NCBI GenBank assembly: GCA_022844125.1
Contig: JALHMI010000012.1
Location: 124,001 to 188,000 of the forward strand
Source of the DNA: Pirellulales bacterium
GTDB taxonomy: Bacteria; Planctomycetota; Planctomycetia; Pirellulales; PALSA-1355
Length of the DNA stretch: 64,000 nucleotides
Reading direction: 5' to 3'
Shown here: piece by piece, positions 31,126 through 40,853 of the stretch
Layout: each line of letters begins with the position of its first letter
Position numbering within the stretch: the stretch's first letter is position 1
Position numbers and translations under genes: made by a program
The notes under the pieces: model-generated
What the model saw: only the letters and a program-made list of their open reading frames with translations
What the model was told of the DNA's origin: nothing
Databases searched by the model: none

Positions 31126-31498
31126 CACTCATCCCCCCTGTGTGATTCCGATCGGCCAGTAGCGCGTGTTTCGGGATCGCTGCGACTGGCCCATGTGGGT
31201 CTACAACCATCCATCGGCAAGCCCTACAGCCGGCATTGAGAGAATGTCCGGCAGAACCGGCAAGGTTTCTCAGCCAATCACTTCGAGAGCGAAACAAGGA
31301 CCAGGACTAACCACAGAGGACGCAGAGGTTCACAGAGGGAAGAGCGAGGATCGGAAGAGGATTGGAGACACCGCATGGGTGACAAACAACTCCGTTGCCG
31401 GCTCCCTCCGCCCATGTGGGGAGGGCTGGGGAGGGGGGGACTTGGCGCCTGCTAGCATAATCGCATTATCGAGTGGCAGCCCCTGCTAAAATGCCGGA
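31126..31498. other. Intergenic region with two dispersed repeats
   Basis: No gene is seen. The region holds an AACCACAGAGGACGCAGAGG-type motif at 31309-31340 (inverted relative to a copy at 31915-31937) and a short hairpin/G-tract repeat at 31398-31439. Confidence 0.5.
31398..31439 (+). repeat. Short hairpin/G-tract repeat
   Basis: The element reads CCGGCTCCCTCC, a short spacer, then GTGGGGAGGGCTGGGGAG and a run of G. The CTCCCTCC and GGGGAGGG parts can pair, and the G-runs fit a quadruplex pattern. The same layout occurs on the minus strand at 37120-37160. Confidence 0.65.
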
Positions 31499-33049: not shown

Positions 33050-34927
33050 ATGGCAGCAGTCACCAGCGAAGTCATCAATCTCGCCGCCTACAAGTTCGCC
33101 CCCTTGGCGGATCTGCAAGCTCTGCGTGAGCGCCTGCGCATCCAGTGCAAGCTCTGGAAGCTCCGCGGTACGATCCTGCTCAGTCCCGAGGGAATCAATC
33201 TGTTCGTCGCCGGCGGCCGCCAGGAAGTCGACCTGCTGCTCGCAGAACTGCGCGCGATCCCGGGCCTCGCGGGGCTGGAGCCGAAAGAGAGCGTCAGCCA
33301 GGGGCAACCCTTCAACCGCATGTTGGTTCGCCTCAAGCGCGAGATCATCGCCTTCGGCGTTCCCGGCATCGCGCCCGGCGTGCACACCTCGCCGAAGCTC
33401 GCTCCCCAGGAGCTCAAGCGGTGGCTCGACGAAGGGCGTCCGATCACGCTTCTCGACACGCGAAACGAGTACGAAGTCAAACTCGGCACGTTCAAAAACG
33501 CCGTCACGCTTGGGATCGATCACTTTCGCGATCTCCCTGCCGCGGTCGAGAATCTCCCCGACCAGGTCAAGCACGATCTCAAGCAGCGCCCGCTGGTGAT
33601 GTTCTGCACGGGCGGCATTCGCTGCGAAAAGGCCGGGCCGTACATGGAGCAGGCCGGCTTCGCGCAGGTCTATCAACTCGACGGCGGGATCCTCAAGTAC
33701 TTCGACGACTGTGGCGGCGAGCACTACGACGGTGAGTGCTTTGTCTTCGACCAGCGCGTGGGCCTCGATCCGACACTCGCAGTGACCGGAAACGCCGTCT
33801 GCTTCCGCTGCCTCGCGCCGCTCACCGTGGCCGAGCAGCAGGACCCGCGCTATGTGCCGGAAGAGTCCTGCCCGCATTGCTTTCTCTCCGATGCCGAGCA
33901 GATGGCCCAGACGCTCGCCAAACGCGAGGCGGCCATCCGGCAAGTGACCACGCCGCTGCCGGGCTCCGTGCCGCACGACAACGATCGGCCACTGAAGATT
34001 TCCACCAAACACGACGGCCTGCCACTACTCGACGCGCTGCGCGAGATCCTGCCGCATCTCGCCCGCGAGTATTGGCAAGAGCGTTTCGACCTGCGGCTCG
34101 TGCTGAATGCCAGCGGCCAGGCCGTGACCGCCCAGCAGCGCGTGCGGTCCGGCGAGGTCTATCTGCACCGGACACCCGCCAACATCGAGCCGGACGTCAG
34201 CGCGCAGGTTCGCCTGCTGCACGAGGACGCCGCGCTCGTCGTGGTCGACAAGCCGGCCCCGTTACCGCTGCACCCCTGCGGCCGCTTTAACCGCAACTCG
34301 CTCGAGTGGATTTTGAACCGGGTTTATGCGCCGCAAAAGTTGCGGCCCGTGCATCGGCTCGACGCCAACACGACCGGCGTCGTGGTCTTCGCCCGCACCA
34401 GGCACTTTGCGAGTCAATTGCAACCGCAGTTCGAGGCCGGCGCGGTAGAGAAGCACTACCTGGCGCGAATCCAGGGACGCCCCTCGGAATCGCACTTCGC
34501 TTGCGACGCGCCGATCGGCGTCGAAACCACAGAGCTGGGCGGACGCGCCATCGCCGAGCAGGGCGACGAGCAGGGCGCCAAGAAGGGACTCATCGCGCGC
34601 ACCGAATTTCGCCTGCTTCGCGAATTTAGCGACGGCACCTCGCTGGTCGAGGCCCGGCCGATCACAGGCCGCACCAATCAAATTCGCGTGCACTTGCAGC
34701 ACCTGGGCTTTCCGATCTGCGGCGAGCAAGCGTATCTCGCCAACCACCAGCTCGGCGAGACCCAGACCCACCGCATCACCGACCCACCGCTCTGCCTGCA
34801 CGCGCTGCGCATTTCGCTCGTGCATCCGCTGACGCGAGAGCGCGTCTCGTTCGAAAGCCCCGCCCCAGCATGGGCAGACACGCCGTCGGTAGCCCAAGCG
34901 AGCCGGGCCCCAAGCGTGCTGGGCTGA
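33050..34927 (+). CDS. trhO: Fused TrhO-type tRNA U34 hydroxylase and RluA-family pseudouridine synthase
   Basis: The product is about 625 residues. Residues 1-110 are the acylphosphatase-like N-terminal domain of TrhO/YceA (GTILLSPEGINLFVAG). Residues 125-225 are rhodanese, with the active-site loop MFCTGGIRCEKAGPYM. A Cys-rich zinc-like linker follows (NAVCFRCLAPL and SCPHCF, near 245-280). From about residue 385 an RluA catalytic domain has RPVHRLDANTTGVVVFART with the catalytic Asp, ARPITGRTNQIRVHLQHLGF and LCLHALRISLVHP. TrhO makes 5-hydroxyuridine at tRNA position 34; RluA enzymes make pseudouridine in tRNA or rRNA. The fusion suggests two steps on one RNA. Confidence 0.88.
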   Translation: MAAVTSEVINLAAYKFAPLADLQALRERLRIQCKLWKLRGTILLSPEGINLFVAGGRQEVDLLLAELRAIPGLAGLEPKESVSQGQPFNRMLVRLKREIIAFGVPGIAPGVHTSPKLAPQELKRWLDEGRPITLLDTRNEYEVKLGTFKNAVTLGIDHFRDLPAAVENLPDQVKHDLKQRPLVMFCTGGIRCEKAGPYMEQAGFAQVYQLDGGILKYFDDCGGEHYDGECFVFDQRVGLDPTLAVTGNAVCFRCLAPLTVAEQQDPRYVPEESCPHCFLSDAEQMAQTLAKREAAIRQVTTPLPGSVPHDNDRPLKISTKHDGLPLLDALREILPHLAREYWQERFDLRLVLNASGQAVTAQQRVRSGEVYLHRTPANIEPDVSAQVRLLHEDAALVVVDKPAPLPLHPCGRFNRNSLEWILNRVYAPQKLRPVHRLDANTTGVVVFARTRHFASQLQPQFEAGAVEKHYLARIQGRPSESHFACDAPIGVETTELGGRAIAEQGDEQGAKKGLIARTEFRLLREFSDGTSLVEARPITGRTNQIRVHLQHLGFPICGEQAYLANHQLGETQTHRITDPPLCLHALRISLVHPLTRERVSFESPAPAWADTPSVAQASRAPSVLG

Positions 34928-34997
34928 ACAGCGTACTGGGCTGAACAGCGTACGGGGCTGAACAGCGTACGGGGCTGAACAGCGTACGGGGCTGAAC
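34921..34997 (+). repeat. 17-bp tandem repeat array at the 3' end of the TrhO-RluA gene
   Basis: Four units of GGGCTGAACAGCGTAC(T/G) begin at 34921, 34938, 34955 and 34972, with a fifth partial unit ending at 34997. The TGA stop of the upstream gene lies within unit 1. The bases just before (AAGCGTGCT at the CDS end) resemble a unit, suggesting the array arose by slippage from the coding end. Confidence 0.9.
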
Positions 34998-35161
34998 TAC
35001 TTGCCGCGCGGCAGTTTCGCCATGATCGATTTCACGATGGAAGTGCTCACCGCGGTATAACCCATTCCCTTGGCGAGCTTGGCAATCTCGCTCGGATTCT
35101 TGGCGGGGTATTCCTTGACCAGTTGTGCGATCGCGGCCGGCGTGCTTGCGAGTTTCTTCAT
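34997..35161 (-). CDS. Orphan small protein, possibly a gene remnant
   Basis: A 54-codon frame runs from ATG at 35159-35161 to TAG at 34997-34999. The product is basic, starting MKKLASTPAAIAQLVKEYPA and continuing with NPSEIAKLAKGMGYTAVST, ending KLPRGK. It reads as a helical domain and is more protein-like than chance, but I cannot name a family. An in-frame stop lies shortly upstream, where the sequence becomes repeat-like, so it may be the 3' end of a gene whose 5' part was lost. Its stop abuts the tandem array. Confidence 0.45.
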   Translation of the reverse strand: MKKLASTPAAIAQLVKEYPAKNPSEIAKLAKGMGYTAVSTSIVKSIMAKLPRGK

Positions 35162-35628
35162 CGCCGCATTGTCGCCGTCATAGTCACTCTGTCAATCCAG
35201 CGTGCATCCCGCGAGTCGGGGCCGCTCGGTCTTTATCCCAGTTCTGCTCCCTCCCCCAGTGCCGATCCGTGTCCAGGGACACGCGCCGCCACGGTCACGA
35301 AGCTTCCCGACACGGCTCGGCACGTGTGGGGAGGGTTGGGGAGGGGGCGTCTTCCATTCCTTGGGACACCCTCCACTTCGTTCATCCGATTGCTGCCGTT
35401 CGAATCCGCTCGCCGCACGTGTGCCGGATGTCATCTCAGCTCTGCTACAGCCGAGGCCCCGAAGGATTTTTCATCCGGCTTGCCCAGGAGCTCGGGTAGC
35501 AGCACCCCATATCTCCGTGCGGACGCCACCCTTGCCCAGGTATCATTTCGGTCGGCGCGAGATTATCCTGATACGTCATCGGACTCCTACTCCGCACCGC
35601 CAGGACCTCCGTTTCAAGGAGAATGCTA
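35162..35628. other. Repeat-rich intergenic region before the PEP-CTERM gene
   Basis: No gene is recognised. It contains long hairpin/G-tract repeat copy A (35241-35347) and low-complexity sequence after it. The ribosome binding site of the PEP-CTERM gene (AAGGAG) ends near 35621. Confidence 0.5.
35241..35347 (+). repeat. Long hairpin/G-tract repeat, copy A
   Basis: The element runs from GTTCTGCTCCCTCCCCC to GGGGAGGGTTGGGGAGGGGG. Inside it, GTGCCGATCCGTGTC and GACACGGCTCGGCAC form a 15-bp stem with one mismatch. The flanking C-rich and G-rich tracts extend the pairing. The last 20 bases contain four G-runs of three or more. Confidence 0.85.
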
Positions 35629-36525: not shown

Positions 36526-36634
36526 TTCTGCTCCCTCCCCCCAGTGCCGATCCGTGTCTACTGGCACGCGCCACCCCAACCACGCAGCTTCCCGGACACG
36601 GCTCGGCACGTGTGGGGAGGGTTGGGGAGGGGGC
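36526..36634 (+). repeat. Long hairpin/G-tract repeat, copy B
   Basis: It has the same ends as copy A, with GTGCCGATCCGTGTC and GACACGGCTCGGCAC arms and the GGGGAGGGTTGGGGAGGGGG end. The loop differs from copy A. It lies 115 bp upstream of the DUF559 gene. Confidence 0.85.
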
Positions 36635-36748
36635 TCTTCCTCTGCTTCCTCACCGCAACCCAACGCTTGCTCCCCGCGATTCCGCTCCGCTACCATCAAG
36701 CCATCCTGCGGTGGTAATCCCTCGTGACCCGATCGCCGGCGAATCACC

Positions 36749-37105
36749 ATGGTCCGCGACGACGAGCAGCGCGACTTCGCCCGGGTGCTCCGCACCCACG
36801 CCCAGCCTGCCGAGCGGCGCCTCTGGCAGTACCTCCGCGCCGCGCAGCTCGGCGTGAAGTTTCGCCGCCAGGCCGCGATCGGTCCCTACGTCGTCGACTT
36901 CGTTTGCTTCCCGCGCAAGTTGATCGTCGAGCTCGACGGACCGCAGCATTTCGATCCCGCCGCGCGCGATCACGACGCGCGCCGCACCGCCTGGCTAACC
37001 TTGCAAGGGTTCCGGGTTCTTCGCTTTCGCAATCACCAGCTCGACGAAGACATTCTTGGCGTAGTGCAGAACATCGCGCAAGCGCTCGCCGAGTGCGAAG
37101 CTTGA
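36749..37105 (+). CDS. DUF559 endonuclease-like protein
   Basis: The product is about 118 residues. It matches DUF559 (Vsr/PD-(D/E)xK-like nuclease fold): TPAER-like HAQPAERRLWQYLRA, VKFRRQAAIGPYVVDFVCF, KLIVELDGPQHFD and the final GFRVLRFRN. The Asp in VVDFV and the E-L-D of the next strand are the likely metal-binding residues. It is a small cytoplasmic protein. Copy B of a hairpin repeat lies upstream; an inverted short copy lies 15 bp downstream, then copies C and D. A link between this nuclease and the repeats is inference. Confidence 0.85.
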   Translation: MVRDDEQRDFARVLRTHAQPAERRLWQYLRAAQLGVKFRRQAAIGPYVVDFVCFPRKLIVELDGPQHFDPAARDHDARRTAWLTLQGFRVLRFRNHQLDEDILGVVQNIAQALAECEA

Positions 37106-37119
37106 TTGCCGATTCAAGA

Positions 37120-37160
37120 CCCCCCTCCCCAACCCTCCCCACGGAGTGGGAGGGAGCCGG
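37120..37160 (-). repeat. Short hairpin/G-tract repeat, inverted copy
   Basis: On the minus strand it reads CCGGCTCCCTCCCACTCC, then GTGGGGAGGGTTGGGGAG and a G run, the same design as 31398-31439. It begins 15 bp after the DUF559 stop and faces copy B upstream of that gene. Confidence 0.7.
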
Positions 37161-37222
37161 AAATTTCAGAGACGCGCCGCTGCTGTTCTCTCCCACGCGG
37201 CGACGCCGCCACAGTATTCTTC

Positions 37223-37309
37223 GGTTCTGCTCCCTCCCCCCGTGCCGATCCGTGTCCACAAGCACCCGCGGCCACAACCATGCAGCATCCCGACGCGGCT
37301 CGGCACGTG
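37223..37309 (+). repeat. Long hairpin/G-tract repeat, copy C (lacking the G-tract end)
   Basis: From GGTTCTGCTCCC to CGGCACGTG this 87-bp stretch is identical by eye to 37339-37425. The stem arms are GTGCCGATCCGTGTC and GACGCGGCTCGGCAC. After GCACGTG the G-tract is replaced by CGGGGACGCGG. Confidence 0.8.
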
Positions 37310-37338
37310 CGGGGACGCGGCCGCTCCGTCTTCCCCCC

Positions 37339-37448
37339 GGTTCTGCTCCCTCCCCCCGTGCCGATCCGTGTCCACAAGCACCCGCGGCCACAACCATGCA
37401 GCATCCCGACGCGGCTCGGCACGTGTGGGGAGGGTTGGGGAGGGGGGC
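37339..37448 (+). repeat. Long hairpin/G-tract repeat, copy D
   Basis: A direct duplicate of copy C at an offset of 116 bp, but with the intact GTGTGGGGAGGGTTGGGGAG end. It carries the same stem and loop as copy C, so C and D probably came from one recent duplication. Confidence 0.85.
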
Positions 37449-39973: not shown

Positions 39974-40658
39974 ACTGAAGCAGCAACATCAGGAGACGGC
40001 CGCGGCGAAGGATTTGCTCGCGGTTGGTTATCTTTATGCTAGCACGCAGGTGCAACGGCGCCGCTGGCAGATCCTAACAACTCTCTCGGCACCCGGAAAT
40101 TCAGGGCAATCGAGTTGCAACGCGTCTGCTGTGCACGCTTGCGACGGAACAACGTCACGCGATCCGGAAAGCGTGTCTCGCGAGCGAAGAAACTGCCGTT
40201 GACTCGCATCTCGCGGGCGGGTTAGGTTGCTCAAGTTCGATTGATCGAAGGCGGGACCGAGAGCATCCCACCGGTTGATATCGGGCCGAAATGCTCGCCG
40301 CAGTTCGCAGGACTTGCGAAGCGGAGCGTCGACCCGGTTCTCACGGCATCATCGTCGGTTCGATGACCGCCGAGAAGGTCAGCGAACCGCTAATGCCCCG
40401 GCGCTGTACAAGGTTGGACTGAATAAAACGAATCGCTTCTGGCGAACCACTGCCGTTCGCGGGTGCGAGTCCGGTTCGACCCCGCTTGCACGCCATCTGG
40501 CTGCTTGCCACTTGGTGCCAGACAGCGAACGGCCAGAAGAACTCGCTCCGACAGGTAGGCAGTGAACCGCGGCCCCGGTCACTGCGTACAAGATGCCGGA
40601 GCCACAAAGACATGGTATTAGTCCAGGGAAGCAATGTCGTCAGAATGGAGTCATGAAC
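39974..40658. other. Long intergenic region upstream of csrA
   Basis: No gene, tRNA or repeat is recognised in these 685 bp. Short frames on both strands (for example a 97-codon frame on the minus strand at 40341-40634) lack any known domain and a good start. The csrA promoter should lie here. Confidence 0.4.
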
Positions 40659-40853
40659 ATGTTAGTGCTCAGTCGGAAGAAGAACGAGAAGGTGATCATC
40701 GGAGACAACATCGAAGTCCGCGTGATTGACGTCCGCGGAGACCGCGTGAAACTCGGCTTCATCGGCCCCCAGGATGTGCCGATTCATCGGGAAGAGGTGT
40801 GCCGCCGGATCGACGAGTGGTCGCAGTCGGAGCGCGAAGCCTGCCAGCGATAA
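40659..40853 (+). CDS. csrA: Carbon storage regulator CsrA
   Basis: The product is 64 residues from the ATG at 40659 (MLVLSRKKNEKVIIGDNIEV), with GGAG 8 nt upstream; an ATG two codons earlier is possible. It has the CsrA RNA-binding beta-strand and the HREEV motif (VPIHREEVCRRID). It binds GGA-containing mRNA leaders and alters translation. A stem-loop terminator follows. No flagellar genes are near, which is unlike many csrA contexts. Confidence 0.95.
   Translation: MLVLSRKKNEKVIIGDNIEVRVIDVRGDRVKLGFIGPQDVPIHREEVCRRIDEWSQSEREACQR

Follow-up and report, generated by a model that had tools for sequence, protein, structure and literature searches.

Short palindromic repeats of bacteria have been described both with and without an enzyme partner. 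In the available passages of Di Nocera et al. 2013, GTAG REPs occur with RAYT and CGTC REPs are without a known transposase (PMC3733652); the term "DUF" is absent from the text of that paper. Holder et al. 2015 described TMECO, which is the same as BoxC and PIT, as a G/C-rich intrastrand-triplex motif with 3610 copies in 262 proteobacterial genomes. The motif consists of a C-rich arm, a loop, a G-rich arm, a 3-nt spacer, and a second G-rich arm, and its gene contexts, according to the accessible parts of that study, were never associated with mobility functions (PMC4666352).

On the enzyme side, excerpts of a 2005 survey took YcjD as a known PD-(D/E)XK member and reported that its profile picks up Vsr (PMC1189080). 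In the portions available of three further papers, Caulobacter VsrA, which has a DUF559 domain, accounted for the SOS response of a methyltransferase mutant (PMC12907096), raised expression was listed for a DUF559 gene of D. radiodurans among repair genes (PMC6712171), and a DUF559 intein gene was termed EDxHD (PMC9403480). Search listings of open-access papers, the scope of our search, gave no link between DUF559 and repeats, with subscription papers and preprints outside that scope.

Results

The DUF559 gene of the window lies between inverted repeat copies

The window analyzed here is a stretch of 64,000 nucleotides and corresponds to bases 124001-188000 of contig 12 in the 6.44-Mb genome of a Pirellulales bacterium. 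A gene for a predicted PD-(D/E)XK nuclease of 118 amino acids is located on its plus strand at 36749-37105. The protein matched DUF559 (PF04480) with an E value of 6.2e-37 and 126.2 bits, against a curated cut-off of 20.6, and the gene was the sole PF04480 match of its genome in the profile search. Beyond DUF559, the search returned just MTES_1575 beneath the cut-off, so that no Y1/HUH tyrosine transposase is encoded by this gene. The two neighboring ORFs that were scanned encoded a PEP-CTERM protein and a redoxin-domain protein.

Upstream of the gene, repeat copy B (36526-36634, plus strand) has a long-loop hairpin and a G-tract tail, and downstream an inverted short copy (37120-37163, minus strand) begins 14 bp past the stop codon; the tails of both flanking copies face the gene. 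The nearest arms, at 36612-36638 and 37116-37142, are 27 nt long, inverted, and 96% complementary, and they bound a minimal gene unit at 36612-37142, which therefore has terminal inverted repeats like those of an insertion sequence or MITE. Farther downstream, the long-loop copies C (37225-37330, plus strand, without a G-tract tail) and D (37341-37447, plus strand, with a G-tract tail) are arranged in tandem 116 bp apart, indicating that the repeat copies in the window are not all independent events. Copy A, also long-loop, lies approximately 1.4 kb upstream of the gene (35242-35348, plus strand), and a distant short copy with one core mismatch is located at 31395-31438 (plus strand). The first-pass annotation had described a DUF559 gene with copy B upstream, an inverted short copy downstream, and copies C and D beyond; the coordinates and the complementary arms confirmed this arrangement, and the repeat-framed nuclease gene is thus a real observation.

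With up to three mismatches, the 19-nt core of the repeat had five matches in the window, compared with 0.00 expected from 100 shuffles. In the whole genome, the 18-nt core was present in 7 exact copies and in 16 copies with up to two mismatches, and four of the seven exact copies were within about 1.5 kb of the DUF559 gene. The long copies A to D carry an additional palindrome inside the hairpin loop. Compared with shuffled sequences, the DNA fold was stronger for copies A and B (z = -2.9 each) and no stronger for copies C and D (z of about -0.8) or for the two short copies examined (z = -0.40 and -0.02). For the short copies, the "hairpin" label is therefore based on their likeness to repeats at other loci. 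Elsewhere in the window, about five tandem copies of a 17-nt unit (AGCGTACGGGGCTGAAC) occupy 34913-35014, starting where the ORF at 33050-34927 ends, and the ORF at 40593-40853 resembles the carbon storage regulator CsrA by eye.

The protein resembles homing endonucleases and Vsr in predicted fold

An AlphaFold2 model of the window protein had a pLDDT of 93.8. In a Foldseek search with this model, the first structure was 3hrl, an endonuclease-like Neisseria protein and a close sequence homologue of the window protein, followed by I-Bth0305I, a homing endonuclease (TM 0.69/0.81), with Vsr as a weaker match. The sequence profile likewise detected 3hrl and the I-Bth0305I domain 3r3p. Twelve columns were invariant in a 57-row alignment (R15, E22, W26, F38, R40, D50, F51, E61, D63, G64, R79, and R92), among which E22, D50, E61, and D63 are, by analogy, candidate active-site residues. 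The E. coli ycjD product was 45% identical to the window protein. In a tree of 76 DUF559 domains, the planctomycete label required five changes, compared with a shuffled mean of 24.9; the tree was mostly clade-wise for planctomycetes, with many forks lacking resolution, and the nearest protein of named source to that of the window came from a Planctomycetaceae MAG (L088).

DUF559 genes are flanked by inverted repeats in many genomes

Because the repeat differs between genomes, the flank test was built without any motif. The 300 nt upstream of each gene was aligned to the reverse complement of the 300 nt downstream, and a score of at least 16 was taken as the threshold. A PF04480 profile search over 297 genomes of the class gave a match in 164, and planctomycete loci were taken in order of E value (all rows to 4.2e-35, then 40 chosen lower ones) rather than at random. 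Overlapping loci (L041, L045, and L046), loci with a short flank (L096 and L098), and fragments with E values above 1e-20 were left out of the counts, and five near-identical copies in genome G188 were counted as five unflanked domains. The threshold was reached by 57 of 76 planctomycete DUF559 domains, compared with 2 of 126 control ORFs and none of 380 shuffles. In a second, lower-scoring planctomycete set, 20/40 domains were flanked, all 20 by hairpin-type repeats. By source, at least one flanked DUF559 gene was present in 49 of 62 planctomycete genomes (60 genomes together with the sources of L088 and L120).

The link extended to other phyla, where 20/32 DUF559 loci reached the threshold, against 2/53 ORFs and 0/160 shuffles; record titles in a set of 36 loci named Omnitrophota, Chloroflexi, Nitrospirae, Proteobacteria, and Doudnabacteria, among others. 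Among eight plasmid loci, hand-picked from 52 records to span taxa, four were flanked (Deinococcus sp. NW-56, D. proteolyticus, Azospirillum lipoferum, and Sinorhizobium meliloti pSymB), and those of Sphingomonas, Photobacterium, Synechocystis, and Shinella were not flanked. Altogether, 39 of 116 planctomycete domains in both sets and 12 of 32 loci of other phyla fell below the threshold, several of them being weaker hairpin pairs. The tails, judged by G/C balance at 75 loci, pointed inward at 52, outward at 5, and unclearly at 18, indicating that their direction is not uniform.

Several individual loci had features of their own. At L052 (G188:C5:326000-343600), five nearly identical DUF559 genes lie on the same strand within about 8 kb, partly at a 1.54-kb spacing and without close flanking repeats. 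Long-loop flanking hairpins with a common CTTGCAA, reminiscent of window copies A to D, were seen at L065, L068, and L072. In S. meliloti pSymB (L215), the DUF559 gene lies between pairs of inverted elements resembling REPIN dimers, and single stretches of similar sequence are present in other rhizobial plasmids.

Vsr and Y1 genes serve as controls

The control ORFs were taken from six frames at a length of at least 100 amino acids in loci of at least 5 kb (38 planctomycete and 22 other). Because these may include spurious ORFs, Vsr and Y1 gene controls were added. Among Vsr genes (PF03852), tested with a downstream window of 450 nt and with L243 dropped for its short flank, only 1 of 29 was flanked, and that one by an unrelated repeat. 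Y1 transposase loci of the same class, tested with the downstream window shifted by 60 nt, had flanking inverted repeats in 19 of 30 cases and thus provided a positive control. Their arms were of another kind: a pyrimidine run followed by a purine run was found in 68 of 75 DUF559 arms and in 0 of 19 Y1 arms, the latter re-tested after being cut at 70 letters. The aligned arm of the window (L001) was among the seven misses because its aligned part lacks the C-rich half. By eye, many of the planctomycete Y1 loci L133-L153 had two-hairpin flanking repeats bearing a TAGCC-like tag. This difference between the arms indicates that two separate repeat-enzyme pairs coexist in the class. The enrichment of DUF559 genes near such repeats, which the first-pass annotation had put forward as a check across genomes, therefore held against ORF, Vsr, and Y1 controls as well as in other phyla. 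These results indicate that the linkage between DUF559 and the repeats is strong and specific and that the unit is laid out like a repeat-enzyme system.

The repeats could instead be moved by another enzyme, such as a Y1 transposase, or by the replication and repair machinery of the host, with the DUF559 gene as cargo. A Y1 match was present in 250 of the 297 genomes, and contig 17 of the window's own genome carries two exact copies of the repeat, with a Y1 gene at distances of approximately 355 and 510 bp. At this place (L008, G000:C17:172858-174065), the two copies are inverted with their tails out, and the adjoining Y1 gene has its own GGGGTCAGAACTATTT ends. A RAYT was rejected as the partner of the window repeat, since the contig-17 Y1 gene has other terminal repeats by eye and the Y1 arms of the class differ, none of the 19 being of the DUF559 type. 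Random cargo would also be expected to differ from place to place, yet members of a single family are found again and again in several phyla, and their repeats co-vary with them, as described below. Repeats that persist without DUF559 fit the cargo explanation, which we consider unlikely overall.

Repeat number and repeat sequence vary with DUF559

We counted one fixed repeat pattern across the class and defined a strong DUF559 match by an E value below 1e-15. At least four pattern matches were found in 46 of 97 genomes with strong DUF559 and in 23 of 200 others (odds ratio, 6.9; P = 4e-11), and a within-family permutation of this link gave a P value of 5e-5. The pattern was absent from 31 of the 97 genomes and misses other repeat types. 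Conversely, G268 (91% complete) had 561 matches without a strong DUF559, and many repeats were likewise present without one in G051 and G016 of the genus g4.

Repeat-arm similarity at 75 flanked loci had a median of 0.77 within a locus and 0.30 between loci, although the former is partly built in because loci were retained for matching arms. Arm similarity also tracked protein similarity (Mantel r = 0.215, P = 0.0005, 2000 permutations, kinship ignored). Repeats and proteins therefore co-vary.

A simpler explanation is that G-rich hairpins are common in these genomes, end transcription, and land near small genes by chance. A reversed control pattern matched in some genomes (for example, G082 and G175) and was mildly enriched with DUF559 (9/97 versus 4/200, P = 0.012), indicating that composition contributes a little to the link. 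In the available text on Enterobacter sp. 638, CCCTCTCCC/GGGAGAGGG repeats were regarded as presumable terminators (PMC2869309). However, the low rates for ORFs of the same loci (2/126), shuffles (0/380), and Vsr genes (1/29) largely contradict this explanation, and PIT elements showed neither promoter nor terminator activity in earlier work cited in the accessible part of Holder et al. (PMC4666352). We therefore regard it as extremely improbable.

The repeats share the layout of BoxC/PIT/TMECO

Judged from the sequences, the window repeats and those of many DUF559 loci share the hairpin and G-rich tail layout of BoxC/PIT/TMECO, with a small second hairpin in place of the plain spacer at some loci (for example, L035, L064, and L267). 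The published E. coli BoxC consensus had no exact match in the window and was found within 400 nt of 16 out of 110 DUF559 domains, on both sides in 10, which makes the exact consensus a minority form. The window motif GGGGAGGGTTGGGGAGGGG was rejected as a general signature because the repeat varies by genome; it is a local variant. The first-pass interpretation was supported in part: of the suggestion that the locus represents a possible new type of repeat-linked mobile unit, the link between nuclease and repeat stood, and the newness of the repeat did not, given the BoxC/PIT/TMECO layout. By its layout, the repeat type itself is known already, and its putative enzyme partner is newly proposed.

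BoxC copies adjoin ycjD in E. coli

The K-12 gene ycjD is annotated as DUF559. In strain FDAARGOS_1289, a consensus-fitting BoxC copy overlaps the 3' end of ycjD with its tail toward the gene, and a second one follows approximately 170 nt further on; in K-12, the second copy is retained and the first is shortened. Published-consensus matches at ycjD numbered one in L154 (K-12) and two in L157. In the strains read, BoxC was present only on the 3' side of ycjD and not on its 5' side.

At least 80% of the fabI-ycjD-sapF stretch was present in 3363 of 5426 E. coli genomes. For the comparison of BoxC-like places elsewhere in the genome, 59 chromosome rows were used from 60 listed out of 5399 matching records (plasmid row H202 was dropped); ycjD status was judged by query coverage, and up to 40 pieces were counted per genome. 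The number of further BoxC-like places had a median of 34 (20 to 36) in 37 genomes with ycjD and 7 (2 to 31) in 22 genomes without it (P = 1.8e-9, kinship ignored). Among the matches listed, at least 20 such places were found in 37/37 genomes with ycjD and in 8/22 without it. Two O157-labelled rows had no ycjD, yet 21 BoxC-like places. Since E. coli strains are related, this association is a correlation between lineages. Genomes without ycjD were rejected as simple empty sites, as an efflux cluster adjoins fabI instead in the two that were examined; an exchange of the ycjD region for an efflux cluster beside fabI is likewise described in the available text of another paper (PMC12817139).

The unit is present or absent at orthologous places

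In the genus g4 (nine genomes), the unit was found at one orthologous place in G090, G230, G292, and G083, of which G083 conserved just the left flank. The gene pointed one way in G090 and G230 and the opposite way in G292 and G083. The same place held a single tail-less hairpin built of the outer arms in G051, G016, and G027 and other sequence without an element in G031; G297 (68% complete) gave no flank match. In the genus g65, with the comparison settled for four genomes and G017 and G068 left out, G040 had the unit, G032 had a single element at that place, and G012 and G060 had none. Within the hpa gene cluster of two Deinococcus species, the unit occupied different intergenic positions, and the oxidoreductase-hpaE junction of D. 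proteolyticus had no unit. A same-species empty site for the S. meliloti unit was not obtained, since coverage of at least 80% was found for a single record among the 150 that matched, namely that of the query itself. Presence and absence of the unit were seen at orthologous sites in the two genera g4 and g65. These orthologous sites show gain or loss of the unit, rather than its direction or mechanism.

Because each hairpin is palindromic, inverted elements are also direct repeats, and a deletion between them leaves a solo hairpin. The solo hairpins at empty sites are equally expected from such plain deletion. Clean single-repeat insertions were sought among G090, G051, and G016 and rejected, as the intergenic regions were too diverged to define ends or duplications. 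Likewise, no target-site duplication was established at the compared occupied and empty sites, whose flanks were too diverged.

These sites bear on two further explanations. In the first, the unit would be a transposon of approximately 500 bp with terminal inverted repeats and DUF559 as its transposase, and the dispersed repeats would be miniature forms, as the 27-nt inverted ends in the window and the differing hpa positions could suggest. PD-(D/E)XK enzymes hydrolyze DNA and are not known to join strands by themselves; TnsA works together with TnsB. With no target-site duplication seen in the diverged flanks and a hairpin kept at three empty sites, an insertion sequence of this kind is very unlikely. 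In the second explanation, DUF559 would be a repair or anti-structure nuclease akin to Vsr that acts on hairpins or triplexes in replication and remains beside its substrate without spreading it. The predicted fold near Vsr and the detection of Vsr by the YcjD profile (PMC1189080) agree with such a role, as do the SOS response attributed to VsrA upon methyltransferase loss (PMC12907096) and the instability of E. coli BoxC loci, where inverted palindromic pairs are reduced to hairpins in some strains (PMC4666352), as given in the accessible parts of these sources. However, maintenance does not predict a gene bounded by inverted elements, a unit that comes and goes, or the differing positions in the two Deinococcus hpa clusters, and we judge it distinctly unlikely.

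Discussion

On balance, we lean toward the reading that gene and flanks together form a single unit of a repeat-nuclease system, analogous but unrelated to REP-RAYT, in which the nuclease probably cuts the folded repeat and copying spreads the element. We infer recognition of the element, cutting, and cut-driven copying to proceed as follows. In the layout of the repeats, a C-rich/G-rich hairpin precedes a G-rich tail that could fold back onto it as a third strand. As a Vsr- and homing-endonuclease-like PD-(D/E)XK enzyme, the DUF559 protein would recognize this folded element in a single-stranded or extruded state and would nick or cut at or near the hairpin. Repair off another copy would then carry single elements, or the gene between an element and its inverted counterpart, to new places, and deletion between the two hairpins would yield the solo form. 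The ties of the Caulobacter and D. radiodurans DUF559 proteins to DNA damage responses, as far as the available text describes them, fit repair as well (PMC12907096, PMC6712171).

DUF559 often lies between mirror-image BoxC-like copies in many bacteria, which points to it as the enzyme behind the repeat. More tentatively, triplex repeats of the BoxC/PIT/TMECO type might be driven in many phyla by DUF559 enzymes that have so far gone unrecognized in this role. This would be another REP-type system, evolved independently of RAYT, that would act by structure-directed homing within the genome, repair copying a bare repeat or the whole unit into the break, with YcjD as its K-12 representative; we regard this wider proposal as possible, though somewhat less likely than not. 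BoxC-type repeats are abundant, are tied to genome instability, and were formerly without a known mobility gene in the available account (PMC4666352), and an enzyme partner existing in E. coli K-12 turns their origin and spread into an experimental question. If the proposal is true, pairings of a dispersed palindromic repeat with a single small enzyme would have originated on at least two occasions and with unrelated chemistries, and a role would be assigned to a nuclease family that is so far chiefly a domain of unknown function.

Comparison with known systems

The first-pass annotation saw in the layout a mirror of REP-RAYT with a nuclease instead, and the analogy is good, the Y1 genes of the class being a positive control with another repeat. 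REP-RAYT systems (REPtrons and TIRtrons) share short dispersed palindromic repeats and a small gene between inverted copies with the DUF559 unit. In contrast, their enzyme is HUH/Y1 rather than a predicted PD-(D/E)XK nuclease, and the DUF559 repeat is a hairpin with a G-tract. CGTC REPs are palindromic like the DUF559 repeats and are said to be without a dedicated transposase in the available text (PMC3733652), but they have another sequence. Vsr, the very-short-patch repair endonuclease, has its superfamily in common with DUF559, and Caulobacter VsrA carries a DUF559 domain according to the excerpts available (PMC12907096), whereas Vsr genes are not repeat-flanked here (1/29). I-Bth0305I and the EDxHD homing endonucleases provide the next solved fold after 3hrl, but no intron or intein was seen at the unit. 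BoxC/PIT/TMECO resembles the DUF559 flanks in its Y-rich arm, loop, R-rich arm, short spacer, and G-rich tail; no mobility gene was reported near the BoxC/PIT/TMECO copies in the accessible text (PMC4666352). Altogether, the layout is RAYT-like, and because the defining enzyme and repeat differ, the unit falls outside REP-RAYT and appears to be a new kind of system, though each component was previously described.
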